In this document: positions 1,686 to 33,180 of the stretch, one piece after another
How the letters are laid out: every line of letters starts with the position of its first letter
How positions within the stretch are numbered: position 1 is the first letter of the stretch
NCBI GenBank assembly: GCA_903813345.2
Contig: CAIIXF020000002.1
Coordinates: 1,342,001-1,406,000, forward strand
DNA length: 64,000 nucleotides
Direction of reading: 5' to 3'
Origin: Owenia fusiformis
Taxonomy: Eukaryota > Annelida > Polychaeta > Sabellida > Oweniidae
Notes under the pieces: generated by a model
Told to the model about the DNA's origin: nothing
Database searches by the model: none
The model's input: only the letters and a program-made list of their open reading frames with translations
Translations under genes and position numbers: made by a program

Positions 1686-2098
1686 TTATGGAACGGAATG
1701 TTGCTGTTTATGTAGAGCCAGCATATATGGATGGGCGAACCCTGTTTCACATATATCACATTTAAATGGTTTCTGTCCAGTGTGAATGTTCATGTGGACA
1801 TTGAGACTTTGTCTTGTACTGTACATCTTCCTACACACTTCACATGCGTATGTCTTTGCTGTATGTCGTCTTGTGCGCTGTCTCGGTTTCAATTCAATAT
1901 CTTCCTGGCGACCACTAAATTGAGACAGATCTACGCCTTCAAATACCATCCCTTGTGGTATACAGGTCATGTCATTTGCTTTGGGATATTTGTATGATGG
2001 TATGTTAATATATTGTAATTCCGTAACGCCTGGGACGTCTGTGATTGCTTGCATGTTGTGTGCACTTGCTTGTTCTGTTAATCCTTCTGGTAATTTAT
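1686..2098 (-). CDS. alternative terminal exon T14, two C2H2 fingers
   Basis: Most distal of the phase-matched terminal exons. The acceptor reads TTTTTTCCAG (AG at 2099-2100) and the exon opens with AT, giving codon G|AT (Asp) with the shared donor. It encodes about 137 residues: an ~80-residue linker ending in a basic stretch (KPRQRTRRH), then finger 1 (CEVC, helix TRQSLNV, H-x3-H) and finger 2 (CDIC, helix HPYMLAL, H-x4-H) joined by the linker HTGQKPF, and a stop four residues later. The linker is longer than in most sister exons. Expected role: the DNA-binding end of one isoform of a nuclear regulator. The translation and splice phase are seen directly; the isoform itself is inferred. Confidence 0.85.
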
Positions 2099-2154
2099 CT
2101 GGAAAAAATGAAAAATGCAAATTATTGTTTTTTCTTGATGTATTTATTCCATGA

Positions 2155-2237
2155 GGGAGCATGCATTATTTACATTCAGGGGAGAGAGAGCATGCATTAT
2201 TTACATTCAGGGGAGAGAGCATGCATTATATTTACAT
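2155..2237. repeat. short tandem repeat, ~30-bp unit
   Basis: Nearly three copies of a unit containing GAGCATGCATTATTTACAT, just upstream of the acceptor of T14 in the intron. Confidence 0.8.
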
Positions 2238-3851
2238 AAGGAGATAACTGACAAAAGATGGTGACATTCTGCTGAGTAACAGATGAAATGAGTAACATGT
2301 TTTGGACCACAACCAAAGATGGCTGAAGATCCCTGAATCTTAAACCTAACCCTAAAGAAGAATCTGAATTTTGCCCGACCATCTTCAGTGTGCTGCATCA
2401 GTGCTCTTCAATATGGAATTGTCAGAATTTAGAAATTGTCTGTACATGTATTTTCTGACCAATTTATATGGATTGATTTCCCTACAATTATCACAAAGTA
2501 TATAATGTAGAGATGTCCGCATTCTAAAAAAACTGTCAGAAATTGCTTGCATTATTTTGCAGGCTTCTTTGGATGATTTCAATAGTGAATAGTCTTGATT
2601 TTATAAATATTGAAGTGAAAGACAAACCAACATTATGAATTTCGTTAGATGAGGGTTATGGGATGGGAAGAGGGTAAACCATAACGAATTAAATCAATCC
2701 TATAAGAATATGGTTTGGGATATTTGGGTTTGTTTACTTTATGACTGGTGTCCTTTTTGATTTTTTCTTTTTTTTGCTGCGTTCTTTAACAATTTTTGGT
2801 CCTTATCCTTTGGCACTAAATATATTCAAAAACAAAAGCATTAGGATAGTAACCCAACTGAATCATACGACTCAAAAAATAAAGCAAATGGGTGCACCAA
2901 CATGCAGCGCTTACCTGAAAATCAATTTGCTTTCACTTAAAAAAGAGAAAAATCATGAAAAACTGGCAATATTTTGACCAATTTTGATCAGAATCGCAAA
3001 AATGAGAAATTTGCACCCACTTGAGAAAAAACCTGTGGAGAACACTATGTAGATTGTAGATAGCAGTCAAACTGGCAATGCATCATTCTAAGTTTCGGAT
3101 TCTCATATGTAATACATTGCAGAATACAACACAAATGTAAGAAGCATTCACAAGCAGTATCCTAATTTATTTTTGCTCACTGCCTTGTTAATTACATTTA
3201 AACATAATTTAATTTTCAGTTGCATGAAAAAGATTTAAAGAATAAATCGAAATATTGTAAAACTAAATCAATTTGTTATTGTAACATAAAAACAACTTTA
3301 TTTAAACATCATGAAAGGAATTCAACTAGTTTCATAAAACAAATACTGGCAGAGATCATTCTAATAATCAGATACTAAAATTTCAAGGACAACAGTGTAA
3401 CATTAAGTACTTAACACAGTATAAATATATGAACATTATCATATGTTCATTAAAATTAATCTATATTACTTTTACTCACTGCCTGGCTAATTATATTCAA
3501 ACCATTTTGAGAGATATTCATGAACAGATTTAAATAGAATTATGAAAATAATATTGCAGTAAAATTATTTGCACTATACTGCAAATATCTTGCACAATAA
3601 ACTGACTAAAACCAAATTTTCAATTCTCAAGTCATTCAATTAATGAGGATTTGTATCAAGTTTAAAATAAAAGATTGTGCCAAAAATAAATATAAAAATT
3701 AAAATGCATCAATTTTAAATGGAAATAAACTGTCAAAAATATATACTAAATTTACTACTAAATCTTCACTATTTAGTATAATGGCTATTTCTCACAATAA
3801 ACTAATGCTAAAAAAACTGCTATCACAGCTAACTAATAACAAAGTCTACAA
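2238..3851. other. intron-like spacer, no gene seen
   Basis: AT-rich spacer between T14 and T13. I see no finger motifs, coding exon or clear transposon ends on either strand. TTTATT at about 3297 could serve as an AATAAA signal for T13 on the minus strand but is far from its stop codon. Confidence 0.5.
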
Positions 3852-4141
3852 TCAATGATCAAACTGTTTCTGGTGCCATCTATAGACAGTATGATGTGTA
3901 AAGTCTTCCCCACAGACATTACACTTATAAGGCTTCTCGCCTGTGTGAATGTTCATATGTCCTCTAAGATTGCGTTCAGATGCAAATGTCTTCAAACATA
4001 TACTACATGTGGGTCTGCTTTGCATTGTTGGTCTTCTTTGCTCCTGTGGTTTATCAAAATGTGGGTTGACTTCTTGTGTATGGGCATATGGCAGACTTGG
4101 AACTGCTGGTTGGTTTGTTAGTAAGAACTGCAATTGGTCAC
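3852..4141 (-). CDS. alternative terminal exon T13, two C2H2 fingers
   Basis: The acceptor CACTATTTCAG is followed by GT, giving codon G|GT (Gly). About 96 residues: a linker starting GDQLQFLLTNQPAVPSLPY, then finger 1 (CSIC, recognition helix SERNLRG, HMNIH) and finger 2 (CNVC, helix HHTVYRW, H-x5-H) joined by HTGEKPY, then TGA. It is a close relative of T12 and T11: the linker, the CLKTF core and the FTHHTVYR finger are shared. The helix of finger 1 and position 6 of finger 2 (W here, R in the sisters) differ, which would change the DNA target in known C2H2 logic. The final H-x5-H spacing is unusual but occurs in C2H2 fingers. Confidence 0.88.
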
Positions 4142-4919
4142 CTGAAATAGTGAAATACAGATAAGAAATAAAGAGTGTATGCTTTATTGATTTGGGGTCA
4201 AAATGAAACTTATCATATTTCAAATTGAAGTTTTCTCTCCTCTCACTTAATCAATGAATAAAAAGTTGTAACTTGTAGATCTACTTGTAGTTTCATTTTT
4301 TATTTGTTCATAAAATCATTATTTGCTTCATCTTACAATCAAAACTTTAACAAAATGTCCTACATGAATAGGAGATAGTATACTCTCAAAATGGGGCAGA
4401 TGCACTTATAAATGTGACCTTGGGTGCAGCACTCGGGATAAAATGTCCACCCATTAACTCTACCTCCAATTACAAATATCTCTAGAAACATTCTGTAGAG
4501 GAAAAAAACTTATACACTTAAACTGGTAAAGTTGAACACCTAGATGTAAGTGTAACACATCCATACAAGTTGAACATTTTTTACATTTCTGTTATCCAAT
4601 AACTTATAATATTAACTTATAATATGTAAAATGAAACTATGTGAGTGAAAAATCACAGCCACACGTTTTCCTTGCCTTTAGGATGGCCTTTCAGTGTATC
4701 CAATTATGAGTAAAGCTTAATAAGAACCACTTAACAATACATTTACAGTGAATCCTGTATATCTGAACATATCCTTTATCATGCCACCTTTCAATACGAA
4801 CTTTTCCGCAGTCCTAAAAACATAGTACTATGTTATCACCCATTGATTTAGATATTTTAGAAACCTTGATATACCAATCTGTGGCATTCAAATAAGCAGG
4901 TTTTACTGTATGCCTTGAT
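4142..4919. other. intron-like spacer, no gene seen
   Basis: AT-rich spacer between T13 and the exon-end stub at 4920. I see no reading frame or repeat structure beyond short AT runs. Confidence 0.5.
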
Positions 4920-5003
4920 TTCAGTGATTATAATTTCTCTGATGTCGTCTATGTACAGTATGATGTGTAAAGTCTTCCCCACAGACATTATACTTATAAG
5001 GCT
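4920..5003 (-). pseudogene. partial copy of a T12-type exon end
   Basis: About 85 bases repeat the last ~80 bases of T12: on the minus strand they encode the second half of finger 2 (the CGEDFTHHTV region) and the stop region. There is no acceptor or finger 1. The stub abuts T12 at 5004, so the exon end has been tandemly duplicated and left behind as a non-coding stub. Confidence 0.75.
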
Positions 5004-5272
5004 TCAGTGATTATAGTTTTTTTGATGTCGTCTATATACAGTATGATGTGTAAAGTCCTGGCCACAAACATTACACTTATACGGTCTATCACCAGTGTGA
5101 ATGTTCATATGGCTCTTTAGATTGCCCTTTGACGAGAATGTCTTCAAACAAATTCTACATGTAGGCCTTTGATCCTGTGACTTTTCAAAATGTGGGTTGA
5201 CTTCCTGTGTATTGACATATGGCAGATTTGGAACTCTTAGTGGGTTGGTTAGAAAATTGTGCAGCTGGTCGT
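5004..5272 (-). CDS. alternative terminal exon T12, two C2H2 fingers
   Basis: The acceptor CCCTATTTCAG is followed by AC, giving G|AC (Asp). About 89 residues: linker beginning DDQLHNFLTNP, then finger 1 (CRIC, helix SKGNLKS, HMNIH) and finger 2 (CNVC, helix HHTVYRR) joined by HTGDRPY. It is a member of the T11-T13 duplicate group. The linker is shorter than in T13 by a few residues before finger 1 (SQDQRPTC). No frameshift or stop interrupts it, so it looks functional. Confidence 0.88.
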
Positions 5273-5539
5273 CTGAAATAGGGAAATACAGAAAGATGAG
5301 AAACATAAACAATGTATGATTTATGGATTTGGTGTCAGAATGTTACTTATTACATTTCAATCCTCTATTTTACTTGATCAATAAACAATAAATAAAAAAG
5401 CTGTAAGTTGTTATTTTTTGTTTTTTTATTTGATTTTTTAATGTTTTTTCCTTTTTAGTAATATACAATACAATATATAAATAGAGTTATAGTTTACAGA
5501 AATATTAGTATAAAAACAAAATACAAAACTTCTCAAAGT

Positions 5540-7080
5540 CTTGCTTTCAAATAACTTTATGTAAAATGAACCTCTATAAGCTTAACCCATCCATAAGTAC
5601 TTCTCAAAGTTCTGTTATCAAATAACTTTATGTAAAATGAACCTCTATAAGTTTTACCCATCCATAAGTACTTCTCAAAGTTCTGTTATCAAATAACTTT
5701 ATGTAAAATGAACCTCTATGAGTTTAACCCATCCATAAGTACTTCTCAAAGTTCTGTTATCAAATAACTTTATGTAACCCTACTATCACACCAAACTAGT
5801 TCTCACTACGTTCTCGAAAACGGGCTTCAACTGTGTACGAACGGACTGGACGTACTAAGAACCGTTTGGGATCTATTTACAAACTTCATCAAACGTACTC
5901 GAACGGGTAGGTCCTCTAGAACTTAGACAATGCTCAAAATGTTCTCGTGGTCGTCACGTTCTACAATTAGAACGAATGACAACGTACTAACGACGAGCTG
6001 GACGTACTACGAACGGAACCGTCGTACTTCAATCCTACTAGGGACGTTTTAACAACGAGTTGAACTGTCTGAGGACGTGTTGAGAACGAGGTAGAACTAA
6101 TTGCAAACGTGTTTAAACTGATTAAGAACGTATTTAACACTGTTTATGAACGAGTTAGCAAAAATATAGCTATCACACCAAACAAGTTGCCACTGCGTTC
6201 TTCAAAACTGGTTCTAAACTATGTGTGAACGGAATGAACGTAGCTGCAACTTTCTAAGGTCTATTTACGAACTTTATGAACGTTCTTAGACGGGAATGTG
6301 ATTTTAGAATTTTGAATCGATTCAAAATTCGATTGCGACCATACCGTTCTGTTATCAGGTCATGATGACCTTCTAGACTAAGGGACGCGTTCTACGGCGT
6401 TGCACACCGACGTGGTGCGACCTGAACGAACTGCGAACGAGATGGACGTATTGAAGACTGTTTAAGAACGAAGAAGCTAATTATTTCAGACATATTTCCC
6501 GACCACAGCCAGTTTGAGCCCGTTTTACGACGTTTTCGTAGGACTGGCAAGAACGGGTTAGAACGAGTTTGGTGTGATAGGGGGGTTAAATGGACCTCTA
6601 TAAGCTTAACCTATCCTTAAGTACTTCTCAAAGTTCTGTTATCAAATAACTTTATGTAAAATGAACCTCTATAAGTTTAACCCATCCATAAGTACTTCTC
6701 AAAGTTCTTTTATCAAATAACTTTATGTAAAATGAACCTCTATAGGCTTAACCCATCCATAAGTACTTCTCAAAGTTCTGTTATCAAATAACTTTATGTA
6801 AAATGAACCTCTATTATATCCATAAGTACTTTTCAAAGTTCTGTTATCAAATAACTTTTATGTAAAATTAACCTCTATAAGCTTAACCCATCCATAAGTA
6901 CTTCTCAAAGTTCTGTTATCAAATAACTTTATGTAAAATGAACCTCTATAAGCTTAACCCATCCATAAGTACTTCTCAAAGTTCTGTTATCAAATGACTT
7001 TATGTAAAATGAACCTCTATAAGTTTAACCCATCCATAAGTACTTCTCAAAGTTCTGTTATTAAATAACGTTATCAGTGG
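5540..7080. repeat. 71-bp tandem repeat, split by a transposon
   Basis: About ten copies of a 71-bp unit containing CCATCCATAAGTACTTCTCA, three to the left and about seven to the right of an 808-bp inserted element (5778-6585). Units are highly alike, with one short variant around 6810. The array is intronic, between T12 and T11. Confidence 0.9.
5778..6585. mobile_element. PIF/Harbinger-like non-autonomous element, copy 1
   Basis: Terminal inverted repeats: the left end CCCTACTATCACACCAAAC faces a right end whose reverse complement is CCCCCCTATCACACCAAAC. The target duplication is 3 bp, TAA at 5775-5777 and TTA (one change) at 6586-6588; TWA duplications are typical of PIF/Harbinger. There is no transposase frame. 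The inside contains a second, diverged copy of the left end starting near 6170, so the element is a head-to-tail dimer. It is full of CGTTC/GAACG pentamers. Copy 2 is at 42389-43175. Confidence 0.85.
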
Positions 7081-7334
7081 AACTCTATTTTGAGCTTCCA
7101 GTCAGGTGCTTCTCGTCTACAGGTTTTACTGTACTGATGGATGGGCTAGCTTTCAGTGTATCTGATTATGAGTAATTTAAGTTTAAGCAGAACCCCCTAT
7201 CAACATATTTACGGTGAAACCTGTATACCTAACACCTCTCCAATCCAAACACCGCTCTATATGAACATGTTTCCTTGGTTCCATATTCCATTGACTCAGA
7301 CTAAACATCTGCTAATCGAAATGCACTGTCTATG

Positions 7335-7681
7335 ATTTCAGTGATTATGATTTTTCTATTGTCCTCTATATACATTATGATGTGTAAAGTCTTCCTCATA
7401 GACATTGCACTTATAAGGCTTCAGTGATTATAATTTTTCTGATGTGGTCTATATACTAATACAGTATGATGTGTAGTTTTCCTCAAAGACGTTACGCTTG
7501 TAAGGCTTCAGTGATTATAATTTTTCTGATGCCGTCTATATCCTAATACAGTATGATGTGTAGTTTTCCTCAAAAACATAACGCTTGTAAGGCTTCAGTG
7601 ATTATAATTTTTCTGATTTTGTGTATATACTAGTAGAGTATGATGTAAAGTCTTACCCACAGACATTACGCTTGTAAGGCT
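7335..7681 (-). pseudogene. four tandem partial copies of the T11 exon end
   Basis: Four units of about 85-93 bases repeat the last part of T11, from the CNVC region of finger 2 to beyond the stop codon, each starting near GGCTTCAGTGATTATAATTT on the plus strand. They lie directly downstream of T11 in transcription terms, lack acceptors and finger 1, and carry indels. They look like a slipped or stuttered tandem duplication of the exon end. Confidence 0.85.
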
Positions 7682-7947
7682 TCAGTGATTATAATTTTTC
7701 TGATGCCGTCTATATACAGTGTGATGTATAAAGTCTTCCCCACAGACATTACATTTATAAGGTCTATCACCAGTGTGGATGTGCATGTGGCGCTTAAGAT
7801 TGCCCCTTAACGAGAATGTCTTCAAACAAATACTACATGTAGGCTTTTGCTCTTGTGGTTTTTCAAAATTTGGGTTGACTTGGTGTGTATTGGCATATGG
7901 CAGATTAGGGACTGTGGGTGCATTTGTTAGGAAATTGCTCAGCTGGT
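7682..7947 (-). CDS. alternative terminal exon T11, two C2H2 fingers
   Basis: The acceptor TTTCTATTTCAG is followed by AC, giving G|AC (Asp). About 88 residues: linker DQLSNFLTNAPTVPNLPY, finger 1 (CSIC, helix LRGNLKR, HMHIH) and finger 2 (CNVC, helix HHTVYRR) joined by HTGDRPY. It is closest to T12. Relative to T12, finger 1 differs at helix positions -1 (L for S) and 6 (R for S) while N at position 3 is kept, which points to a changed base preference at the edges of the triplet. Confidence 0.88.
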
Positions 7948-9717
7948 CTGAAATAGAAAAATACAGAATATAAGTTGCATGATTAGTAATACAGACTGAG
8001 TGAAACACACAATGATAAGTATCACACTTCTTTTGATAAAAAATTCAAAATGGCCACCGAGTCATTTAGCATGCCCAAACCTTATCAGATCTTGGTACAA
8101 AAATCTACTATCATAGCTATTAAAATCAAAAAGGTACGCTGTTTTCCTTGCATTTCGAAGGCAAGATTTATGTGGCCCACTGCCCACACGCCAAGACAGA
8201 CACATGCCCATCAGCACAAGAGTGTGACAATATAGCACTTTAGATAGGTGTTGTAAAACCTAGGCTAGGAAAAACAATGAGGCTCAGTTCTTTGATCTCT
8301 AATGTCCAAAGTGTTTTAAGATGAATGAGCATGAATGTAACCCTAAAACCATATACTTTTGATCATAGATCATTCTATAATTTACATTGTGCAGCACTTA
8401 ATTAGTATAGTTGAACTTTCCCCAAAAATTAATAAAAGACCTGTTGACAAATTCACTTCATTCCTGACATCAACCGGTAAGGAAAAATCATGAAATTCAG
8501 AATTCAGTTTCTTTGAAAATATATTTTATTAAATTGCTACAGTTTGCAAAATGAAGGCTTCCTGATTTCCAGCTTATCCAGTAAACCCCTCCCCTTCCTC
8601 GATAAAATGAAGGCTGATTGAGGATAACAAACATGAGCTCAATTATACCACACCATAATTAAAGGCAATTTATTTCTTTATTATAAATTACAGTACAATC
8701 AACGGCTACTAATAATGAAGAACAAGCACAAAAGTATATATTCAAATATCTTTTTAAAAGTTTGTGCCAGGCTGACATGTTTCTATGCTTTATATAAGAC
8801 CAAAACATATTTTCCAACATGCATGATGCCCTGTTACAAAAGATTCAATAACATAGAATCGACATAGAAATCACTTACTAGGTAGTTGTATACTGGCTAT
8901 AGGTGGCTCCATGCTATAGCATAGGAACAATGATTTGACAAAAAGTATATGTTTCAGCCTCAGGAAAACGATTATCTTAATGTCTGATGTATAAATGTTT
9001 CAATGTTAATAAATTAATTTTTTAAAAAATGTCTGATTTAAAAGCATATCAGTTTTATCCCAAGTGTCTGTTCAAAGTTTGGAATATAATTGCATACATT
9101 GTGGTGGGCTATTTATGTATGGCCACTTTCAGGCAACTATGACATTACATTCATCTTGTGTATGAGTAACCTTGCTGAAAATCCTGTTGAATGTTAATTG
9201 GTGAGAACTTATCTTGATGAAATCTTGAATCATGTGTGTAATATTTTTAAGTATCTTTAAGGTAAAATGATCTGAGTACACACATAGATTATAGTTTGGA
9301 ATATTTGGGGTTTGTCTTCCTAAGAAATGGTTATCTTAGCTGTTTCATTTCCTTCCTCTGTTTTGTTACATATTTTAGTTTTCCTTTGCGGCATGTACAT
9401 CACACTACTATACCCCCATACTGTATCCTGTATTCCTTTAAAAGAAGTACAGGCTACAGGGAAGTTGCAAATGGAGGACGTTTGTTTATTTCCATAGTTC
9501 TGAATGTATACTAGATTTTACACATATTCTAAGTGTTCTACTATACATTGTATAGATTCATCGAGCAGTTTGCAATGTATTATTACCAGAAAAGCCCAAT
9601 GGACAAAGATAGAGAATACCCACTCCATTTCCAACTTAACCGTACCCTGTATCATTTTTAAATGTGGTCACGTGGTAGGGTAGTGTGTACATACAAGAAT
9701 ATAAATGAATCCATTTA
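7948..9717. other. intron-like spacer, no gene seen
   Basis: Spacer between T11 and the T10 remnant. No finger motif, splice-framed exon or transposon ends are visible. TTTATT at 9714-9719 would read AATAAA on the minus strand about 220 bases after the T10 stop and is a candidate poly(A) signal. Confidence 0.45.
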
Positions 9718-9936: not shown

Positions 9937-10220
9937 CTATTTATCCGGATGGTATTTTCTCTTATGCATCTTTAGGCTGAAATGATGCGGATATGCTTTT
10001 TCACATATATTACACTTGTGAGGCTTCTCCCCTGTATGAATATTCATGTGAACTTTCAAATTCTTCTTATTCGTGAATGTCTTCAAGCATATTTTACACA
10101 TTGGTCTTTGGGAATATATGTCTGTATTGGCAGCCATACTTGTACCAGATATAGCTGCATTGGCTACCATATTGTATTCATTCTCTGGGATTCCTGTTAC
10201 ATACTCCCAATGTGTCCGAC
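9937..10220 (-). CDS. alternative terminal exon T10, two C2H2 fingers
   Basis: The acceptor TTACTTTTCAG is followed by GT (codon G|GT, Gly). 94 further codons including the stop. It opens [17 protein letters not shown], so the true coding start is the splice site, upstream of the first internal Met. Finger 1 (CKIC, helix [12 protein letters not shown]) and finger 2 (CNIC, helix HHFSLKM, H-x4-H) are joined by HTGEKPH. The exon ends HPDK then TAG. Confidence 0.88.
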
Positions 10221-11189: not shown

Positions 11190-11521
11190 TCATTTATTCT
11201 TATTGTGTCTGTTCTTCTTATGCAGTGTTAAACTGTAGTGGTGAGGAAATGCCTCCTCACAGGAATCACACTTGAACGGTTTTGCTCCCGTATGAATATT
11301 CATGTGGACCTTCAGGTTCTGATTGGTCTGGAATGTCCTTAGGCAGATTTGGCAACTTGGTCTTTTACCAGTTTGTTTCCTCTTTGTTGGGACATTCACA
11401 GGTGGAATGGTCTGACCATAAGATGGAATTGTCTGACCACTAGGTGGTATTCTTTGACCATTAGGCGACATGTTGCTGCTTCCTTGTGTTAACCATTCAC
11501 TGTACATATACTCCGGTAAAC
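11190..11521 (-). CDS. alternative terminal exon T9, two C2H2 fingers
   Basis: The acceptor TATTTTTAG is followed by GT (G|GT, Gly). About 110 residues, opening LPEYMYSEWLTQ, with a repetitive linker of three variants of an (S/P)xGQxIPP motif, then basic KRKQTGKR. Finger 1 (CQIC, helix [12 protein letters not shown]) and finger 2 (CDSC, helix HHYSLTL, H-x4-H) are joined by HTGAKPF. The codons just before the stop spell AATAAA, so a poly(A) signal overlaps the stop codon. Confidence 0.88.
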
Positions 11522-13092: not shown

Positions 13093-13388
13093 TCAAATTC
13101 CCGAATGATGCTTAATCTTATGCTGAGTCAGACTATATGGATGTGAAAATCCTTGTTGACATAGTTCACATATATACGGCTTGTTCCCTGTGTGAATATT
13201 CTGGTGTCTTTCAAGTATTTGTTTCGTCGTAAATCTTCGCATACAAAGTGGACACTCGAAACGTCTGATTTTCGGTCTATTGCTGCTTTTCACTTCCCAT
13301 TTTTGTTTTTTATTAAACGCTTCTGTACCCATGATAGAATATTCTCCCATTGATGTTTTAAATGACACGACTGGCAAGGCATCTGGTC
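13093..13388 (-). CDS. alternative terminal exon T8, two C2H2 fingers
   Basis: The acceptor TTATTTTTCAG is followed by GA (G|GA, Gly). About 98 residues: a linker opening PDALPVVSFKTSMGEY with a basic stretch (KKQKWEVKSSNRPKIRR), then finger 1 (CPLC, helix TKQILER, HQNIH) and finger 2 (CELC, helix HPYSLTQ, H-x3-H) joined by HTGNKPY. Only about 600 bases separate it from T7. Confidence 0.87.
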
Positions 13389-13983: not shown

Positions 13984-14252
13984 TCAGCTCATGTGTGACT
14001 TTATTCTATGTTTGTTGAGGTTACTGGGATGTGAGAATGCTCTATCACACATGTCACACTTGAACGGCTTCTCTCCAGTATGGGTTAACATATGATATTT
14101 CAAGTTCTGGCGAGACATGAATGTCCTAAGGCATAGCTGACATCTCTCCAGTGTGGATCCCTGCTTTTGTCTCTTTCTGTGTGTTGCACCCGAAACATTC
14201 TGCAGCAGGTGTTCCTGGTCTGAAGGCAACATCATTGGAATGGGGAACATGC
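13984..14252 (-). CDS. alternative terminal exon T7, two C2H2 fingers
   Basis: The acceptor CATTTTCAG is followed by GC (G|GC, Gly), then ATG. About 89 residues. The linker contains a basic segment (HRKRQKQG) before finger 1 (CQLC, helix SRQNLKY, HMLTH) and finger 2 (CDMC, helix HPSNLNK, H-x4-H) joined by HTGEKPF. The exon is compact and intact. T7-T10 and T14 share the HP or HH start of the second helix. Confidence 0.88.
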
Positions 14253-16004: not shown

Positions 16005-16360
16005 TTAAACGCACATTTTATGAACATTCTTCATGTGGCCTCTCAGGTGTGCAGTCTGCCGGAACTTCTTTAAACACAGGCTACATTGGAATGGTTTCTC
16101 TCCAGTATGGATTCTCATATGTCTCTGCTTATCCTGGGTCCGCACAAATGTTTTACTACAGTAATCACATATTATCTCTCCAGTATGTGTCCTTGTTTCA
16201 GGGATAATTGTCTCTCCAGTGTATTTATTCTCAAAGGTGATCGAGTTTGCACCAGTGTGTATTGTTTGCCCTTGGAGGTATACAGGATCCATACTGGTGA
16301 CTCCTGCAGAGCTGGATTGAGGCAAATAAGGGATGTATGGAATGTTAGGGAAAGTTTCAT
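16005..16360 (-). CDS. alternative terminal exon T6, two C2H2 fingers
   Basis: The acceptor CTTTATTTTCAG is followed by AT (G|AT, Asp). 118 codons after the junction including the stop. Opening reads [16 protein letters not shown]. The linker contains two HTG-like remnants ([17 protein letters not shown] and RTHTGE), as if extra fingers had decayed. Finger 1 (CDYC, helix [12 protein letters not shown]) and finger 2 (CSLC, helix QTAHLRG, H-x4-H) are joined by HTGEKPF. It belongs to the second subgroup (T1-T6), whose finger 2 core reads C-x2-CLKxF. Confidence 0.87.
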
Positions 16361-18342: not shown

Positions 18343-18344
18343 TA

Positions 18345-19719: not shown

Positions 19720-20088
19720 TTATTTGCTTTTATTATGTGTACTAATGTGAACTTTGATTGATGACCGCCATCTAAAACGTTTTCCACACACAGGACATAC
19801 ATGGACCCTTCCAGCATGTTTCCCTTCGATATGCTCTGTTAAATACCTTTTTGAACTAAACGTTTTCTGACAGAAAGAGCATATGTGAGCAGTTTTTTTC
19901 TCTTCCCATAAATGTTTATCTTTGTGATAAGACAAAGCCTGTCGACTGTTAAACAAATCACCGCATGTTTTACACTTATGGACAGGTTCGTAGCCGTGCT
20001 TTGAGCGCTGGTGATTTTTCAATGTGGATCGTTGACCAAATCTCATAAAGCATTCTTTACATTCATGAGATTTGTTTTGCAGTCGGAC
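19720..20088 (-). CDS. four-finger C2H2 exon, different splice phase
   Basis: The acceptor ATTATTTCCAG is followed by GTC CGA CTG. The open frame runs 123 codons to a stop at 19720 in phase 0, so the split codon of the shared donor would put it out of frame (stop after about eight codons). It encodes four fingers: ECKECFMRFGQRSTLKNH, HKCKTCGDLFNSRQALSYH, HICSFCQKTFSSKRYLTEH and HVCPVCGKRFRWRSSIKVH, with linkers unlike TGEKP. This is typical of a different multi-finger gene. It may be the 3' exon of a nested gene or use another upstream exon. The frame is clean, so recent function is likely. Confidence 0.7.
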   Translation of the reverse strand, partial: VRLQNKSHECKECFMRFGQRSTLKNHQRSKHGYEPVHKCKTCGDLFNSRQALSYHKDKHLWEEKKTAHICSFCQKTFSSKRYLTEHIEGKHAGRVHVCPVCGKRFRWRSSIKVHISTHNKSK

Positions 20089-21712: not shown

Positions 21713-21975
21713 TCACTTATTGCGATGGTGCAATTCACCAATTTTATGCACACCTCTTTTGTGTATGAGTAAATTATCATTTCTCGTAAACTTTTTCAGG
21801 CACAATTCACATTGAAATGGTTTGTCCCCACTGTGTATTCGCATATGGCGATTGTACTTAGACTGATGGATGAATCCCATTTGACAAATACTGCATAAAA
21901 ACTTTGGTTGTCTATTGTCTTGTCCATCAGGTCTTAAATGGACTCCTTTATTGGGATAATTGAAGAAAGCCTGCC
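21713..21975 (-). CDS. alternative terminal exon T5, two C2H2 fingers
   Basis: This exon has no internal start codon and is found only by translating from its acceptor. The acceptor CTCTATTTTTCAG is followed by GG (G|GG, Gly), then 87 codons including TGA. Opening reads QAFFNYPNKGVHLRPDG. Finger 1 (CSIC, helix HQSKYNR, HMRIH) and finger 2 (CELC, helix RNDNLLI, H-x4-H) are joined by HSGDKPF. The tail is VHKIGELHHRNK. Phase and architecture match the other terminal exons exactly. Confidence 0.87.
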
Positions 21976-23122: not shown

Positions 23123-23361
23123 TTATTTTCTGCTATGTGTTTTCCAGTGAATCTCCAAATGGTCCCTTCTTTTAAATGACTTAAGACAAAGCTGACATTG
23201 GAATGACCTCTCTCCCGTATGTTTGGTCATGTGACGTTCATAGTGTGATCGATAATGGTAATCTCTGCAGCATATTCTGCAATAATATGGCGAGTCTCTA
23301 GGATCCTGAGGCGACTTTTGATTTTCCAGATGGGCATTACTAGGGCTATGATGCCGAAACT
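23123..23361 (-). CDS. alternative terminal exon T4, two C2H2 fingers
   Basis: The acceptor GTTTACTTTTAG is followed by AG (G|AG, Glu). 79 codons after the junction including the stop; the shortest terminal exon. Linker FRHHSPSNAHLENQKSPQ, then finger 1 (CRIC, helix YRSHYER, HMTKH) and finger 2 (CQLC, helix RRDHLEI, H-x3-H) joined by a degenerate linker HTGERSF. It ends THSRK. Finger 1 has Y in place of the usual F (CCRDYHYRS). Confidence 0.87.
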
Positions 23362-24009: not shown

Positions 24010-24362
24010 TTAAGGTACGTTCTGTGTTATCTTGTGAACCTTAAGCCTGTGTACTTTCAACTGCTGCGGTTGTCTAAATGATTTCAGACACAATTCACAT
24101 TTATATGGTTTTTCTCCTGTATGGATCCGCATATGATATCTATAATTTGTAGAGTCTTTCAATCCTTTGTTGCAAATAGAGCAAATAAACTTTTCAGCTG
24201 CTTCTATTGAGGTATCCCCATATTGTTGGACATGTGGGTTAGAGTGAAGTTGATGTCCATGTGTCGGTGGCCTCGGGCTGTATGCATTCATAGGGTCTTT
24301 GACAGGAGTTGAATGTTGTCCATATGTATACAAATTGTCAATTCCTTGCTCCGAATACAAAC
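24010..24362 (-). CDS. alternative terminal exon T3, two C2H2 fingers
   Basis: The acceptor AATATTTTCAG is followed by GT (G|GT, Gly). About 117 residues, opening [19 protein letters not shown]. Finger 1 (CSIC, helix [12 protein letters not shown]) and finger 2 (CELC, helix QPQQLKV, H-x4-H) are joined by HTGEKPY, ending [10 protein letters not shown]. It is a recent duplicate of T2: same length, conserved acceptor and fingers, with most changes in the linker. The only change within the finger-2 helix is Q/H next to the recognition position. Confidence 0.88.
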
Positions 24363-24889: not shown

Positions 24890-25190
24890 AATACACATTA
24901 TGGTGCAATTCACAATTTTTTTTCACCTCTCTTTTGAGTGAGTAAATAATTTCAAATACACATTAGTTTTATAATACACTTGATATTTCTCCAACTTTCT
25001 CACTTTTTTGCCATGGTGCAATTCATCAATTTTTTGATCACATCTCCAAGTCATTATTTCAACAAATGCACATTAATTTCATAACTCACTTTATGTATTC
25101 TCCAACATTCTCACTATTTGCAATGGTGCAATTCAACAATTTTTTTAATATCCCTCTTATGTGTGAGTGAATAATTATTTCAAATAAATT
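24890..25190 (-). pseudogene. decayed tandem copies of a T5-type exon end
   Basis: Three units of about 110 bases resemble the antisense of the T5 exon end (GCAATGGTGCAATTCA.CAATTTTTT) and its AT-rich downstream stretch. They lie just downstream of T2, although T2 itself ends differently, so these copies were left by an earlier duplication that included a T5-like exon end. Confidence 0.6.
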
Positions 25191-25269
25191 TGTTTTGTAA
25201 GATACTTGATTGACTTTGGAAAATGACAATGTTTTTGTCTTTTCTTGCCTAGAAATATCAACCAGTCCA

Positions 25270-25622
25270 TTAAGGTACATTCTGTGTTATCTTGTGAACC
25301 TTGAGTCTGTGTACTTTTAAATGCTGTGGCTGTCTAAATGATTTAAGACACAATTCACATGTATATGGTTTTTCTCCTGTATGGATCCGCATATGATATC
25401 TATAATTTGTAGAGTCCCTCAACCCTTTGTTGCAAATAGAGCAAATAAACTTTTCAGCTGCTTCTATTAAGGTATCTCCATACCGTGGGGCATGTGGGTT
25501 AGAGTGAAGTTGTTGTTCCTGTGTTGGTAGTCTGGGTTTGTATGCATTTACATTGTCTTCGATGGGAGTTGAATGTTCTCTGAATGTATACAAATTGTCA
25601 ATTCCTAGCTGGGAATGCAAAC
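25270..25622 (-). CDS. alternative terminal exon T2, two C2H2 fingers
   Basis: The acceptor AATATTTTCAG is followed by GT (G|GT, Gly). 353 bases, the same length as its duplicate T3. Opening [19 protein letters not shown]. Finger 1 (CSIC, helix [12 protein letters not shown]) and finger 2 (CELC, helix QPQHLKV) are joined by HTGEKPY. Fingers differ from T3 at only a few residues (GLRD for GLKD, TCEL for KCEL, Q to H in finger 2), while the linker has many changes, so purifying selection on the fingers is likely. Confidence 0.88.
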
Positions 25623-26536: not shown

Positions 26537-26886
26537 CTATTTTCTTTTGTTTTTTTGGATGTTTCTGCCATGTACCTTCTTTAAGTGTGATTTCATGTTA
26601 CTTCTAACGCTAAAATTCCGCAGGCAAAGTTCACACTGGAAAGGCTTTTCTCCAGTATGAGTCCTCATATGATTTTTATAATTTGTTAAATATTTAAATC
26701 CTTTTTGACAGGGTTCACATATATATTTCAATTCTTCAGGTGTTACTTTTGGTGCACTTTTGAGTGTGTTTACGTTATATTTATTGGTTAAGTCTGTATC
26801 TGCTTTCGAACTGGCATCTCCATCCTTACGTGTTTCTAGCACGTTAGTGTCATCCAGGCTCCAGTGCTTGTTCCAATTTGCTGTCC
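26537..26886 (-). CDS. alternative terminal exon T1, two C2H2 fingers
   Basis: First terminal exon reached by transcription after the shared exons, about 5.1 kb downstream of the shared donor. The acceptor GCACTTTTTCCAG is followed by GG (G|GG, Gly). About 116 residues, opening TANWNKHWSLDD. Finger 1 (CEPC, helix YLTNYKN, HMRTH) and finger 2 (CELC, helix VRSNMKS, H-x4-H) are joined by HTGEKPF. The tail is very basic (HGRNIQKNKRK), a possible nuclear localisation signal. Confidence 0.88.
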
Positions 26887-26989
26887 CTGGAAAAAGTGCC
26901 AAACCATTTAGAATTATGGCTGCTTCCAATGTTACGTTTTTATGATGTGTTGTTGTCATAGTAACAAGCTCCCAATCTTAACAGTTTAA

Positions 26990-27678
26990 CCTTTAGCAGA
27001 CCACCGGCGGCCGCGTCCGCCCATTCAAAACTACCCCCAGAATCCACCGGCGGATCCGGACGACACAAATCTAACTTTTGAAAACTTTACTTTTTCCCGC
27101 CGTTCTTATGATCCAATTAGATTGCCCGATTTATTCAGTCCTTAGTAGGTGACTTCCTGTTGACCTAGAAATGGCGATGTTTCGAAAAATCTTTCTCAAT
27201 TCAACAGTGTTTAAGTCGTTTTTAGTGAACAAATCGTACAAAATGACGGCCAAATACAATCACAACGAAAATGTGGAGGAAATGGATTGCGATTTCGAGC
27301 TCTTTAGGCTCTTGGAAGCCGATAATGGTCATCGAAAATAGAAACTAGAATATTTTCTGAACTGAAAAGAAGAACATTCGATCTCTGCAAATTCAGTTTT
27401 GGATTCTGACCAGACGTTGAATCTCCCGAGGGGCGAAACGGCGGATTCTGGAGGAGTATTCATGGTATATTCAAGCCCAGTCGTGTTTATGTACGAAAAA
27501 AATTCATGAGAACATTTTTCTCATGAGCCACGCTAGTGTATCTTCCCTTTGTGAAAATTTTATCCAGATTCATTCAGTAGTTATTGAGATATTAATTATT
27601 TAGTCCAGGCATATCATTTTTGAAAAATAAGTCAGATGCGTGGGATATATTTGCTGAAATAAGTCGGAGTGCAGAAGG
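26990..27678 (+). mobile_element. piggyBac-like non-autonomous element
   Basis: Flanked on both sides by TTAA (26986-26989 and 27679-27682), the piggyBac target. Ends are CCTTTAGCAG and, on the other strand, CCTTCTGCAC, an imperfect inverted pair that begins CCYT as in many piggyBac elements. It is GC-richer than its surroundings (GGCGGCCGCG near the left end). Inside is a 56-codon frame (27171-27341). No DDD catalytic region, so it could not move on its own. Confidence 0.6.
27171..27341 (+). pseudogene. 56-codon frame inside the piggyBac-like element
   Basis: Starts ATGGCGATGTTT and ends CATCGAAAATAG. It contains an acidic stretch (NVEEMDCDFELFRLLEADNG) that could be a leftover of a transposase N-terminus, since piggyBac proteins often start with an acidic region. 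The assignment rests on location and composition only. Confidence 0.3.
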
Positions 27679-27682
27679 TTAA

Positions 27683-29702
27683 ATAAAGTGTAGTTGTCAT
27701 AGTAACACAATGTATTAAATCATTGATCCACATCATAACCATGTCTTGTGTAATCTGAAAATGCCAAATAGTATTAATTGTTTAGCTATGTGGAATTTGA
27801 AAAGTGTGCTTTATATATTCCAAGCCTTTGCTTACTAAGCTAGCTACACCCCAGCACCTTTATAATGTTACATTAACACATTGCTAGGCTTGAAATATCA
27901 AATTCCAAATAATCAAATCACAATATTTCAAATAATTTGATTTCTTAAAATTACAACCAAGCACTATGGCTATTTACAGAATCATTGAATTATTGAATTG
28001 ATCATCAATTCATGCTACCACACTCATTCAAAGGTCTGAAAACAAGACATAATTTGTTAAATCAACCTACGAGTCATTGAACCGCAGGCTTAAATCCTTA
28101 AGTATTAACACTGAAATGACACATCATATTTTTATTTTTTTATTTTTCAGGAAAGTATGCTAATTAATCACATTTAATAGCTTTCTATTAGTGACAACAA
28201 TTCCATTAAGTTTCAATTTGTACAACTTATTCTATTTTCTCCCAGATTAACATTTTTCATTTCATCTTGCCATACAAGGAACTCGTGGGTAATGAATACT
28301 TCCACTTTAAAAGTAATTGATGACACACATAAATCAATTTGCATTGAGAGAAATGCTTTAATACTAACAGCATTCACATTTCTCATTCCAGAGGAATGCC
28401 CTTTGTTTCTAGATTTCAAATGTGTTTTTGGTCTAATCTATTATAAAAAAAATTCTGAACAATTTATTATAAAGCCATCAATTTGCCTCCAAATCATACC
28501 TAGATCTCGTAATTGCTGGAAATGAAAAGCATACCGTTAATTCTGTTTAATGTAGAGCTGTAACAAAATTCCATATTAACTAACTGCAACTTGGCTTATA
28601 TTCTTGGCTAAAATATTCATAAAGAAAAGTGTAAACCTAGAGTCAGAGCACAATTCGTGTCAACTGAAATGTATGAGTATACATGACAGCATATGAAGGC
28701 ATTAACACTGTCAATACACAGATGGAAACAAATCTTCAATGGTCTGTCTCAAATCAAAAAAGAAAACATTGACAAATTAGAAATATATACCGGTACATAT
28801 AAACAGACTTGAGCATTGACCAAAACTTTTCTTTGAACAGTTAAAAATGTGCAGTGAAATAAATGATCCTCCATGTACTGCATTCATCAATGTACGAATC
28901 TTCCACATGTCCACCACAAGGTCACACGTTATCTCTTCGAGTTTCTTAAAGAGGGCTGCATCAAAACCCTTTGGATAAAAAATAACCAATCAGACCTGAT
29001 GGTTCAAAAAGAACTCCCCGATTCATGTTCCAAGTGCTGTGTTTTCTGTCTTCATTTCATATTCAAACTTCTTCAAGCTGTGCTTGGGGCCATTGGAACT
29101 TATCATCAGCATCACACCTGTAAATCGGTTTTCCTCAGAGGTTGGAATTGCATTGCAGACCTCAGGGTGCGGAGTCAGTAATAACACGTAATAACACACT
29201 AATAAAGTGACTCCCACTGATTCTTATGAAACTTAAATTGGCCATGTTTTCTTCAATCAACCAAATTCATACAATTTCTATTAGTTCAACTTCGCTTCTT
29301 AAAAGACAGCTTCGGCTTCATCTTACTTTTTGCTAATCTCTACACTCAAGGTACCAAAGTGACTTATCAACTATAGTTTCACCGTAAAATGAATCCAAAT
29401 CATCACTAACATCTTCATGCAAATAACAAATACAAATAGGGTATGGTTAATATTCTCTCAATTTATTTTACTTATTGCAATTCTTGCATTAAGGGGATGA
29501 CTCAACCTTGAGGATGGCTAAACTGAATTTTTGTGCTGATCCCTAAAGCAAGTACAGTGAGACAAACTGCGAAATGTTAACCTTAAAGTCACTGTCTCGA
29601 TCAATGATCTTGATCATTTATGATCTTGTGATCATTCTCTCATTAGCTAAATCTTATATGCAACTCCTCTAATTGTTCTTACTACTTTACATATATATAA
29701 TA
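27683..29702. other. long intron part, no gene supported
   Basis: Between the piggyBac-like element and the repeat pair at 29.7 kb. On the minus strand at 28780-29215 two frames (KKLEEITCDLVVDMWKIR and HPEVCNAIPTSEENRFTG) might be joined by a frameshift and may be a decayed coding fragment of unknown type. I do not recognise it. No C2H2 exon is present here. Confidence 0.35.
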
Positions 29703-30105
29703 TTAATTTTCATTAATTTCATTATTTAAGAAAATATTTACATTACAAAGGTATACAATGATATAAATCAAGTATGTCGCCATCTCTATCTCAGCTACTT
29801 GCATACAAAATTTTCCGAAAATATTGCAGTAAATCTTTTTCCAAATTTTCTTGATACCGAGTAAATTTTGGTTATTGTAAACTTTGTGGTAGAACTCCTC
29901 AAACTGGTTACAATAACGGATTGGTTTTGGTAACAATATGGTGCAGATTCGAAAGTTCAATTTTTACAATGATTTTACGAGATGGAGGCAGAATTTTCAC
30001 GACCTTTTGGAACAGACATGTGTGAGCAAGAAAATCTAAGCCTCTGCAAGAAAAAAGTTCACAAGACGCTAAAATCATCAATATAATTCCCCACTTTTGT
30101 TCAGG
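29703..30105 (-). repeat. repeat-family copy with decayed frame (inverted partner at 30407)
   Basis: Two overlapping minus-strand frames read FQKVVKILPPSRKIIVK and ICTILLPKPIRYCNQFEEF then a lysine-rich stretch. The plus-strand frame at 30407-30694 reads VKKVLKILPKSHEIMKK, FDILLPKKICFCHRKFERF, so the two are homologous at protein level and point away from a ~300-bp centre. Family unknown. This looks like a dispersed repeat whose copies have a common decayed reading frame. Confidence 0.5.
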
Positions 30106-30406
30106 GGTTTCACTAGAATTTCTCACAACAGGCTGAATAAAAAAAAACAATGTACAAAATTAATGAAAATCTTAAATTTAACATGAAAAAGTTGAAAAGT
30201 CGCTAAAAACAACAGGCAATTTTGTGAAAACATCTGGTGAAAATCGCCTGTTGCCTGCTGCTAATGAAACACCTGATGTTGAATAAACGGTTAACATTCA
30301 CAGTTTTTATCTTTCCTGTTAACGTAATAATAGAGTGGAATTGTTTTGATCATTCCCGTGTTACATAAACTAATTCATTTGCTTACGCTTAATTGATCTG
30401 AAAAAC

Positions 30407-30694
30407 ATGATGCTGACAAATGTTTGTGTCAAAAAAGTTCTGAAAATTCTGCCTAAATCTCATGAAATCATGAAAAAAACATACTTTCAAGTCTTTGACA
30501 TTTTGTTACCTAAGAAGATCTGTTTTTGTCACCGCAAGTTTGAAAGATTTCAAAACAGTGGTAAATTGATTTTCCATGTTTATGAGGAGAAATTTGAAAA
30601 AAGTTTTTTTGGCCCACCCTGTATTTCAAATCATCAGATCTATGCCTCATCAAATTCTAATGAGCCGATGACCCATAATCTGTTGGATTCCTGA
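30407..30694 (+). repeat. repeat-family copy with a 95-codon frame
   Basis: Inverted partner of the copy at 29703-30105. The frame is open for 95 codons, is rich in Lys and Phe, and shows no recognised domain or signal peptide. Conservation at amino-acid level between two diverged copies suggests the ancestral repeat encoded this peptide. Confidence 0.45.
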
Positions 30695-31179
30695 ATATAT
30701 TGTGTGATTTCAATGGCTACATACTTGTTTTAATCATTGGTTGCCAACTCAACATGCCAATTACATGTGATTGTGTCTTTGTTGTTAATGTGTTGTGTTT
30801 TGGTAAAAGTGTTTATTTATCAGGTTTTTAATAATTTGTGGATTTGTAGAGTGTTGCATACTTCAAAATTTACTCAGTGAAGGCAAATGGCACAAAATAA
30901 ATTTAAACTATTTTTTGTTTTACCGAAGAGGATCAAAATCAGAATTGGAATTTGAAGGTTGTTTTCACAAGTTATTGCTCTTCCAAAAAAAAGCAGAAAT
31001 TTAATTGCTCAATGACCCTTTTAACATCCTTTGACATCATTATTTTGACATACAATAAGTAAATTTGATAAGGTGGGTTGGATAATTAACTGGACTGATC
31101 TATAATCATTGTTTGTGTCTAGAAGCTATGTGACAAAGTGTTTTGCACTGTGTAGACAGCTGAAGATGAACTTTGATAC

Positions 31180-31340
31180 TGTAAAATGGTGGTGTATACA
31201 ATGATGGTGTAAAGTGATGGCGTGTATACAATGATGGTGTATACAATGATGGTGTAAAATGATTGATGGTGTATACAACGGTGGTGTAAAATGATTGATG
31301 GTGTATACAATGATGGTGTATGTACAGTGGTGGTGTCATA
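31180..31340. repeat. ~15-bp minisatellite
   Basis: About ten imperfect copies of GATGGTGTATACAAT or the shortened GATGGTGTAAAAT. The unit length varies. Confidence 0.85.
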
Positions 31341-32009
31341 TACATGAATCTTGCATCAAAGCATTAATTTCTGAAATCCAGCCAGTCTGTTCAATTCCTC
31401 TCTGACAATCTTACTTAATTTATTCCCAATGATCCCATTCTCACAGGGAAATGATGTCATTCAATTGAAATTAAGATGAACCAGTATAGAATGGTACATG
31501 TAAAAATTCATAGATGAATAGACAGAGGATAGCATCCTCCGATCACAGGGCTTCAAAATCCAGGATATATTCTTTCTTTTTACCCCCTGCGATAAGCAGT
31601 TAGCATTTCCCCGATTAAGAACTCGCAATCTGATTGGCTGTCGCAACATTGCAACAGAAATCATGTATGATTAGATCGCATGGTTCAGTTAAATCGGGAG
31701 CTTCCAAATTGGTTATAGCAGGGGGAAGAAGGAGGAACAGATTCTGGACACCTGCTTAAGAGGATGGAGTATAGAGGAATTTATAGATTTAAACTTATCG
31801 TTATGCATTAAGTTGAATCTATACAGGTTTGGTTCATCTAAGAAAAGTTTACCGATTATTTCAGGGATATTTCCCCCTCTCATATATTCAAATGTTGCCC
31901 CTTTAGGTTGAGTGTTGATGAGTGAATCCTTGATGCAAGATAACTTGTAATAGTGTGCATATAATTTGACATATATCGAGTTGGCAAAAGTGAGGAAAAT
32001 CATATTCAC

Positions 32010-32306
32010 CTGTATTTGGATTTATTGTGTTATCAGCTGATGAATCTAAAGTGTTATCTCCCATCCAGCTAGCACCTGCGGTTGAGTCACCGTCATATCC
32101 ACCTCCTTCTTCTTCCTCGTCATCATCATCTAGTTCTATAGTAATAGGTTCTTCTTGTTTAATGTTAACATTGTCCATATTTTGTTCAGTAGCACCTGTT
32201 GTTTGATCAAGTTTTTGTTGTTTATCCGATGATTGGTCGTGAGTGTCTTGCGGAGTGTCTTCAGATATGGATCGTTTGATGCCTTTTGGGGAGGAAGGTG
32301 GCTCCT
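32010..32306 (-). CDS. shared exon 2 of the zinc-finger gene
   Basis: The acceptor ATGTTTTTCAG is followed by AG; with the G left by exon 1 this makes GAG (Glu), opening EEPPSSPKGIKRSISED. The donor is ACAG|GTGAATA at 32009-32010 and leaves one G, which matches all 14 terminal exons. It encodes about 98 residues with no fingers: a Ser/Pro region, a Lys-Arg pair, then NIKQEEPITIELDDDDEEEE. I-K-Q-E fits the SUMO acceptor consensus, and ITIEL followed by acids fits a SUMO-interacting motif. Reading through the donor reaches a stop at 31903, so intron retention would yield a finger-less short form. Confidence 0.85.
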
Positions 32307-32640
32307 CTGAAAAACATATCCGAATGAAGCACATTGAAAAGTAAATTTCAAAAGGTCAGTTTCTAGATTGAGCACTCATTACTCAACACTCTTACACAGC
32401 ATTGTATTCTCTAAGGGCTGAGAAGTATGACAGTGTGTCAAGAATAACTTAATCGTCACTAAATGTAATTTCACTAAATTTATACTAAATAGGAATGAAA
32501 TTGACGACTAACTAGACAAATATGAGTTTTCTTTCATAAACTTGTTGAATCAATTTCTATGAATATGTAATTGTTTGATTGTTAATGACCAAGAATTTAT
32601 ATTTTGTAAACTTCGCATCTAAATGAATTTCATCCTTTAC

Positions 32641-33148
32641 CTTTTATTGTAAATTCATCAGAATCTCCCACTCTGCCTCCAGGTGTTTCTTGTGTAGCAC
32701 TTGGAATTTGTGGGTTAATACTTGACATGGAAGAGTTAATAGAAGGTTGTGTAGGATAACCATATGAACTTGGAGGTGCTGTTACAGGAGTTCTGTTAAT
32801 ATTATTGTCTCTACTCATCGGTATCCGTTGCCTTTGAGGGGTACTGTGTTGATTTGGTCGATGATGACTGGGGTCTTGAAATTGCCTAGGTGTTCTTATA
32901 GTCTGGTTAAATCCAAAGTCTGAGATAGTGTCATGGTCCTGAGAGTATAATCCGGGGCTCTGTTGAGCTTGGTTTGGTTTCACAATTGTTCGATGCATCT
33001 TTACAACTATTTCCTTCGCTTCTTCCCCAGGGGAGACACATATTATCCCATCAATCTCGAGCGATTTACTAAATACAACATTCTGTGTGCAAAGTTTAAG
33101 AACTGCATCCTGGATGACTTTCGTCAGTAGTTCACTCGTAGTTTCCAT
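32641..33148 (-). CDS. shared exon 1 with start codon, zinc-finger gene
   Basis: The ATG (33146-33148) is preceded in frame by TAG 9 bases upstream, so it is the true N-terminus. The exon begins at an acceptor (CATATTTCAG, exon from 33180), so a non-coding 5' exon lies upstream. It ends AAAAG|GTAAAG at 32641, leaving one G. The first ~57 residues (LTKVIQDAVLKLC.. then SLEIDGIICVS.. and EIVVKMHRTIVK) suggest a helix followed by two or three strands, a compact domain that I do not recognise and that is not BTB, SCAN, KRAB or ZAD by its visible motifs. The next 110 residues are low-complexity, rich in Pro, Gln, Ser and Asn. With exon 2 it forms the constant 268-residue part of every isoform. Confidence 0.85.
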
Positions 33149-33180
33149 TTTATCTGTCTATCAATCAATGTTATTTCTAC
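33149..33180 (-). other. 5' UTR part of shared exon 1
   Basis: 32 bases between the acceptor (AG at 33181-33182) and the start codon. They contain the in-frame stop TAG that defines the start. The first transcribed exon and the promoter must lie at higher coordinates and could not be placed. Confidence 0.7.

Follow-up and report, generated by a model that had tools for sequence, protein, structure and literature searches.

We analyzed a 64,000-nucleotide stretch of the Owenia fusiformis genome (hereafter, the window), in which two constant 5' exons on the minus strand are followed by an array of short exons, each encoding a pair of C2H2 zinc fingers and its own stop codon. A first-pass annotation of this DNA had proposed two constant exons that end one base into a codon and, behind them on the same strand, 14 exons (T1-T14) that consist of an AG acceptor, two bases, an open frame with two fingers and a stop; the constant exons were confirmed at the coordinates listed below, and all 14 terminal exons were reproduced. 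The gene does not end at 1686, as had been assumed: the array runs on, and because four more exons of the same kind (T15-T18) lie to the left of the window, the focal gene has 18 terminal exons, with no further exon of this kind in the 9 kb beyond T18. From the genomic sequence, it is very probable that these 18 exons are alternative ends of one gene.

Exon anatomy of the locus and phase of its splice sites

The positions of constant and T exons are given in window coordinates, and C1, C2, C6, C7, C8, C11, C457 and C483 designate sequences of the host genome, C2 being the one that carries the window. Class A and class B exons differ at the residue two positions past the first His of finger 1, which is Asn in class B and not in class A. 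The features of the locus are as follows.

Constant exon 1, 32641..33180, minus strand: acceptor, ATG at 33148, predicted alpha-beta-beta domain of ~58 residues, low-complexity linker, phase-1 donor
Constant exon 2, 32010..32306, minus strand: phase 1 at both ends; acidic linker, IKQEE, ITIELDDDDEEEE, STAGASWM
T1, 26537..26886, minus strand: terminal exon, two fingers, class A
T2, 25270..25622, minus strand: class A; recent duplicate of T3; claimed acceptor ranks second
T3, 24010..24362, minus strand: class A
T4, 23123..23361, minus strand: class A
T5, 21713..21975, minus strand: class A
Four-finger open reading frame (ORF), 19720..20088, minus strand: inside the array; phase-0 acceptor
T6, 16005..16360, minus strand: class A
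T7, 13984..14252, minus strand: placed with class B by the tree; without the class B Asn and on the class A side in the order test
T8, 13093..13388, minus strand: class B
T9, 11190..11521, minus strand: class B; claimed acceptor ranks second
T10, 9937..10220, minus strand: class B
T11, 7682..7947, minus strand: in the class B region, Asn absent; the single exon that breaks the class order of the focal array
T12, 5004..5272, minus strand: class B
T13, 3852..4141, minus strand: class B
T14, 1686..2098, minus strand: class B
T15-T18, C2:1331343-1339584 (window -2416 to -10657), minus strand: exon starts at 1339584, 1337842, 1335324 and 1331653

Jointly, the constant exons comprise 268 codons plus one base. 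The intron after constant exon 1 begins at 32640 in phase 1, and exon 1 could join a T exon directly because constant exon 2 is in phase 1 at both ends. The reading frame is open in all 18 focal two-finger exons, and each of the five T exons submitted to Pfam returned two C2H2 stretches. Over the whole exon, the 12 window exons other than T3 are 22-39% identical to T2. No plus-strand ORF with two fingers was detected in the window and the 20 kb to its left, and the genome search with the constant exon 1 protein produced no other match inside the focal array. The four-finger ORF 20088-19720, for which Pfam gives three or four fingers, depending on the model, cannot follow the constant donor in frame because its acceptor is in phase 0; it is probably not part of the focal gene and is possibly the last exon of some other gene.

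The acceptor score was calculated for each AG located 5' of the first finger within a finger ORF, with phase ignored. Its weights were altered once: with the first version, 11 of the 14 window exons (all but T2, T3 and T9) and four of four further exons showed the claimed phase, and the second version was then kept fixed for all later arrays. Under the second version, 12 of the 14 window exons and all four exons to the left of the window have their top-scoring acceptor in the claimed phase. When the 1,881 AGs on the same strand are ranked, 10 of the 14 claimed acceptors are found in the top 1%, T4 is at 3.4%, and T2, T3 and T9 are at 8-9%. The full comparison covers 78 ORFs with at least two fingers, the four-finger ORF included, from the focal array and two paralogous arrays on C2, at 34.3 Mb and 19.75 Mb. 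The best acceptor has the fitting phase in 16 of 19 focal ORFs (the misses are T2 and T9, in which the claimed site is second, and the four-finger ORF), in 15 of 18 at 19.75 Mb, and in 38 of 41 at 34.3 Mb, i.e., in 69 of the 78 finger ORFs, compared to 79 of 209 non-finger ORFs in the same DNA. For a later-fetched array, the phase of the best acceptor is the fitting one in nine of nine two-finger ORFs. The acceptor phase has been kept while the sequences of the terminal exons diverged. It should be noted that the value of (1/3)^14, which had been offered as the chance of 14 unrelated exons sharing one phase, is not a probability, because homologous exons inherit their phase from duplication; we reject it, as the exons are duplicates.

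The constant domain and its paralogous family

The conserved piece of constant exon 1 comprises the first ~58 residues of the protein, LTxxIQDAVLKLCTQ...F..SLEIDGIICVSPG....IVVKMHRTI.KP. AlphaFold2, applied to 46 family members, predicts a helix at residues 4-23 and strands at residues 29-38 and 47-56, with block means of the predicted local distance difference test (pLDDT) of 88-98 across residues 1-60. Constant exon 1 matched no Pfam family at E up to 1; the 46 aligned copies gave nothing convincing in Pfam, and BTB was not among the 16 families listed. The best hits were at E 1.7 in a profile search of the Protein Data Bank (PDB) sequences and at E 0.93 in a Foldseek comparison to PDB folds, in which none was at or below 0.001. 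Thus, BTB or any other known N-terminal domain was rejected for the C2 family, which matched neither Pfam nor the sequences and folds of the PDB. The closest BTB match on C2 is more than 1.6 Mb away, in a list that extends to E 1e-8 and misses the BTB pair on C8 described below. The predicted alpha-beta-beta domain is probably a protein-protein contact domain, because a small helix with a hairpin and an exposed sheet often pairs. In constant exon 2, an acidic stretch, IKQE...EPITIEL.D, and STAGASWM are conserved across the three loci compared; we take IKQEE and ITIELDDDDEEEE to be a SUMO-consensus site followed by a SUMO-interaction-like motif (SIM).

The first-pass annotation had treated the locus as a single gene; instead, it is one of 45 strong copies, 40 of them on one chromosome. 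The constant exon 1 protein has 45 genome matches with E <1e-10, of which 40 are on C2 (35.75 of 498 Mb), two are on C7, and one each on C1, C6 and C483. Altogether, 56 matches were listed and 51 were tallied, including six weak ones (E 8.5e-6 to 0.0043), with 45 of the 51 copies on C2; the five dropped were C2 33050621 (E 1.9e-4) and 33047005 (E 1.0e-3) and three matches at E 0.014 or worse, of which two are on C11 and one is on C457. The copy on the small contig C483 (L057) is nearly identical to C2:17912991 (L056), and it may represent an unpurged haplotype rather than an extra gene. The alignment of constant domains contained 46 copies and left out L057, for its near-identity to L056, and L064, for an insertion. 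In 40 of 45 aligned copies, identity to the focal constant domain is 40-71%. The best donor of the constant exon is in phase 1 in 42 of the 48 copies scored, which were 47 fetched constant exons and the window copy (34404628, 34397817 and 19797930 were not scored).

Eight neighboring pairs of constant copies on C2 are arranged head to head within 4-10.4 kb, e.g., 34397817/34404628, and a ninth pair is within ~25 kb; two of the eight close pairs involve a weak copy. No convergent or tandem pair of constant copies on C2 is closer than 21 kb. The head-to-head arrangement suggests shared divergent promoters.

At least 167 finger exons lie on the same strand behind 23 constant copies on C2, and five more finger-exon matches are without a constant copy. 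This tally, compiled by hand from five genome finger-pair searches that each scored 150 of ~3,500 candidates, is a lower bound; it is confined to C2 frames shorter than ~480 residues (and so leaves out the 656-residue exon of the 19.75-Mb array) and omits two places near 24.1 Mb with frames of 265 and 385 residues, distant from any constant copy. Again as lower bounds, there are 40 matches behind 34397817, 24 behind 34667663, 17 behind the focal gene, 17 behind 19797930, 16 behind 19143092, and fewer elsewhere. Constant exon 2 was detected 12 times, in each case no more than 3 kb behind a constant copy; these are all 11 copies with four or more finger matches and one copy with a single match, and no constant exon 2 was detected for one copy with three finger matches. 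Two copies with a single finger exon, 877417 (C2) and 5360086 (C7), have the same acceptor phase as the arrays, and we infer that they represent the simple form from which the arrays grew.

The array behind 34397817 (34.3 Mb), the largest, contains 47 finger ORFs on the right strand, of which six have one finger and 41 have at least two (26 with two, 12 with three, two with four and one with seven). Disrupted or one-finger exons are found in it at C2:34328000-34344000 and 34387301-34389178; both are evidence of birth and death of terminal exons. The array behind 19797930 (19.75 Mb) contains 22 finger ORFs, 18 with at least two fingers and four with one. At C2:19764092-19764413, two near-identical fragments with only the second finger (HTGNKPHECNMC...) stand directly behind an intact exon and are a partial tandem duplication. 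At C2:19767426-19769396, a terminal exon lies in a frame of 656 residues that differs from most of its neighbors in that two central fingers are flanked by long stretches that are charged and Gln/Pro-rich. Elsewhere on C2, nine two-finger exons occupy the plus strand at 32261107-32274237, with no constant exon found in the 19 kb fetched and a run of N upstream; a neighboring array at 32298315-32315929 is on the minus strand.

Evolution of the terminal exons and alternative explanations

In all three arrays, class A exons are proximal and class B exons distal to the constant part, with one exon misplaced in each. Among 20,000 shuffles of class order per array, 3, 9 and 0 did as well as the observed order; the four-finger ORF 20088-19720 was also counted in the focal row of this test. 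Two of the 78 exons, which have no clean finger pair, were omitted from the analyses of contact residues, selection and the tree. The tree of the remaining 76 finger pairs separates the two classes weakly (support 84/79) and contains array-specific expansions; for example, 29 class A exons of the 34.3-Mb array group together at 86/80. Many forks are unresolved in this tree of 53 columns. Most simply, genes with both classes were duplicated before their arrays expanded locally.

The ratio of nonsynonymous to synonymous substitution rates (dN/dS) over 45 finger-pair codons is 0.10 for T2/T3 and 0.13 for T11/T12, and it is 0.04, 0.05, 0.14 and 0.26 for other young duplicate pairs. Young duplicate terminal exons are under purifying selection; with dN/dS far below 1, they have therefore been kept protein-coding, at least in recent history. 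The DNA-contact positions of the fingers vary widely. We make no claim of positive selection on these residues, because several non-contact positions vary likewise.

We propose that one transcription-factor gene makes up to 18 proteins sharing the 268-residue constant part. Each product would arise by splicing from the phase-1 donor at constant exon 2 (or at exon 1) to one terminal exon and would end in a different two-finger C2H2 DNA-binding module, the different fingers presumably binding different DNA sites. The shared front would combine the small alpha-beta-beta domain, which probably mediates protein-protein contact and may dimerise, with the acidic SUMO/SIM-like linker. The family would have grown by duplication of genes together with their arrays, plus local birth and death of terminal exons.

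Several observations weigh against this proposal. The best acceptor has another phase in nine of the 78 ORFs, T2 and T9 among them; 45 of the 78 exons contain an in-frame Met between the acceptor and the fingers, so that separate starts are possible; and some exons are broken in the largest array (34397817). The dN/dS values are higher in the 19.75-Mb group (0.21-0.48) and are ~1 in a few distant pairs. A junction-spanning retrocopy was searched for, with no match. A poly(A) hexamer follows the stop within 300 bases in 38 of 78 exons, which is no enrichment over random positions (0.483), and the separate terminal exons therefore lack independent support from this side; because the DNA is so AT-rich, the poly(A) test neither helps nor kills the model.

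Among the other explanations, the one that survives best, while still unlikely, is trans-splicing in the style of mod(mdg4), in which the constant and T exons come from separate primary transcripts and the T exons have their own promoters; swappable ends would result here as well, and the difference from our proposal is how the exons are joined. The two best documented insect loci of the same layout do so (PMC4667647, PMC1947980), and finger matches extend up to 43 kb (focal gene) and 86 kb (largest array) away from the constant exon. Conversely, in the three arrays read as a whole, the multi-finger exons are on the strand of the constant exon and downstream of it, and therefore no trans step is needed. 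The plus-strand array without a visible constant exon can be explained by a missing one, because a run of N lies upstream.

It is quite improbable that the T exons belong to separate small genes, each of them closing one gene whose first exon and promoter went unrecognised. Such genes could share the acceptor phase by descent, having inherited it through duplication; the in-frame Met in 45 of the 78 exons is compatible with them, and the poly(A) hexamers are uninformative. The remaining 33 exons, however, contain no in-frame Met between the acceptor and the fingers, no constant-exon match lies among the focal T exons, and constant exon 2 co-occurs with long arrays. Also very improbable is a mostly dead duplication array, of which one or a few T exons are used. 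One-finger ORFs (6 of 47 at 34.3 Mb and 4 of 22 at 19.75 Mb) and the disrupted examples in paralogous arrays are in line with decay, whereas all 18 two-finger exons of the focal gene are open and the dN/dS of young pairs is far below 1. Serial splicing into one poly-finger protein has a familiar precedent in the long finger arrays of many C2H2 proteins, and at least 20 of the listed genome places are in frames of ~500 residues or more; we nevertheless reject it, given that each exon has its own stop and that a donor scoring >3 between the last finger and the stop is present in only one of 78 exons.

Comparison with other systems

To our knowledge, a gene with a constant front and swappable ends is an arthropod speciality tied to BTB proteins of the TTK type. 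Drosophila lola is described with 20 isoforms, 17 of them with C2H2 fingers (PMC1947980, PMC11426971), and the TTK-type BTB, as in lola, is described as arthropod-specific (PMC11426971). For mod(mdg4) of Diptera and Lepidoptera, PMC4667647 describes one constant part and about 30 alternative 3' parts, most with FLYWCH; trans-splicing is shown there, and in some species 3' exons are located on the opposite strand. The locus had been annotated as lola/mod(mdg4)-like, and this holds for the layout, i.e., constant 5' exons and an array of phase-matched 3' exons that, as in lola, encode C2H2 fingers; it does not hold for family membership. We do not class the focal gene with lola or mod(mdg4), because its N-terminus is not BTB; nor is its host an arthropod, and FLYWCH was not among the Pfam families listed for the five of 14 T exons given to Pfam.

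The C2 family thus resembles lola in its constant N-terminal exons and many, mostly C2H2, alternative 3' exons. The difference is that lola starts with a TTK-type BTB, whereas the C2 family starts with a domain that has no detected relative, forms a large gene family, has up to 41 multi-finger exons behind one constant part, and belongs to an apparent lophotrochozoan. With mod(mdg4), it shares the combination of one constant part and many alternative 3' parts, which are BTB and FLYWCH in mod(mdg4) and a new domain and C2H2 fingers in the C2 family. Clustered KRAB zinc-finger genes of vertebrates likewise form chromosomal C2H2 clusters that grow by birth and death; however, in these clusters whole genes, each with its own promoter and long finger array, duplicate, whereas in the C2 family terminal exons multiply behind one constant part. 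Clustered protocadherins also join many variable exons to a constant part, but in them the variable exons come first and have their own promoters, and those of the C2 family are last.

The host had been taken for a non-arthropod, and the Hox genes of the same genome agree: the cluster at C1:18.02-18.47 Mb contains one gene with KLTGP after the homeodomain and two Lox2-/Lox4-like homeodomain genes. The KLTGP (Lox5-type) and Lox2/Lox4-like signatures are presumably lophotrochozoan marks. A search for COX1 gave no match. No description of such arrays outside arthropods was found in the open-licence PMC literature at the level of titles and abstract openings, a scope that excludes subscription papers, preprints and supplements.

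The same genome contains a BTB version. On C8, two BTB exons, 12138508 (minus strand) and 12146008 (plus strand), are head to head ~7 kb apart and share 82% identity along the BTB stretch. In Pfam, the plus copy matches BTB (PF00651) at E 8.4e-9, and its best donor is in phase 1 (one copy read); both copies were missed by the BTB family search, which was cut at E 1e-8. Finger exons of ~220 residues lead away from both BTB exons, 13 on the minus side and six on the plus side, these counts combining search matches and loci read over C8:12062693-12168531. Eight long exons on the minus side were read: in seven of them, the pattern counts five or seven fingers and the phase-1 acceptor is strong, and the eighth is truncated at the end of the piece read; a ninth piece, with three fingers, appears damaged. 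The gaps between six finger exons consist of duplicated DNA with short shared open frames, and small upstream exons in these gaps are possible. With an N-terminal BTB and arrays of phase-1 C2H2 3' exons, the C8 pair appears lola-like by domain, as judged at the genomic level. The C8 pair and the C2 family are alike in having head-to-head constant exons, a phase-1 donor and arrays of phase-1 C2H2 terminal exons; they differ in that the former has BTB and mostly 5-7 fingers per exon, compared to the new domain and mostly two fingers in the latter, and their constant parts are unrelated.

The layout itself is already known; as far as could be checked, what is new lies in its scale, its host group and the front domain. 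More tentatively, and with considerable doubt, the C2 family could be an undescribed class of isoform-diversifying transcription factors, with at least 40 genes on one lophotrochozoan chromosome and a new domain of dimerisation type. At least 23 of these genes would carry finger exons, with a total of over 170 interchangeable ends, most of them two-finger. The shared domain is so similar among the copies that proteins from different genes may pair, and such heterodimers across genes would provide a combinatorial DNA-binding set that could serve a cell- or neuron-identity code. The class would have originated independently of the arthropod BTB loci, alongside the BTB version in the same genome. 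The repeated occurrence of the layout on an unrelated front domain, apparently outside arthropods and next to a BTB version in one genome, would mean that evolution can arrive at it repeatedly and that it is no oddity of Drosophila. The family would also offer many natural replicates for studying the choice among 18 to 41 terminal exons, the need for trans-splicing, and the head-to-head gene arrangement.

The scans of the window for tRNA and Rfam families found nothing. Three other features were observed in it.

52896-54909, minus strand: two frames with reverse-transcriptase matches, presumably a broken element of the long interspersed nuclear element (LINE) type
58730-60746, minus strand: two exon-like ORFs that match short-chain dehydrogenase, below the Pfam cut-off
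39148-41022, plus strand: an open frame of 624 residues, with no Pfam match and with hydrophobic stretches that, by eye, resemble those of a G-protein-coupled receptor (GPCR)

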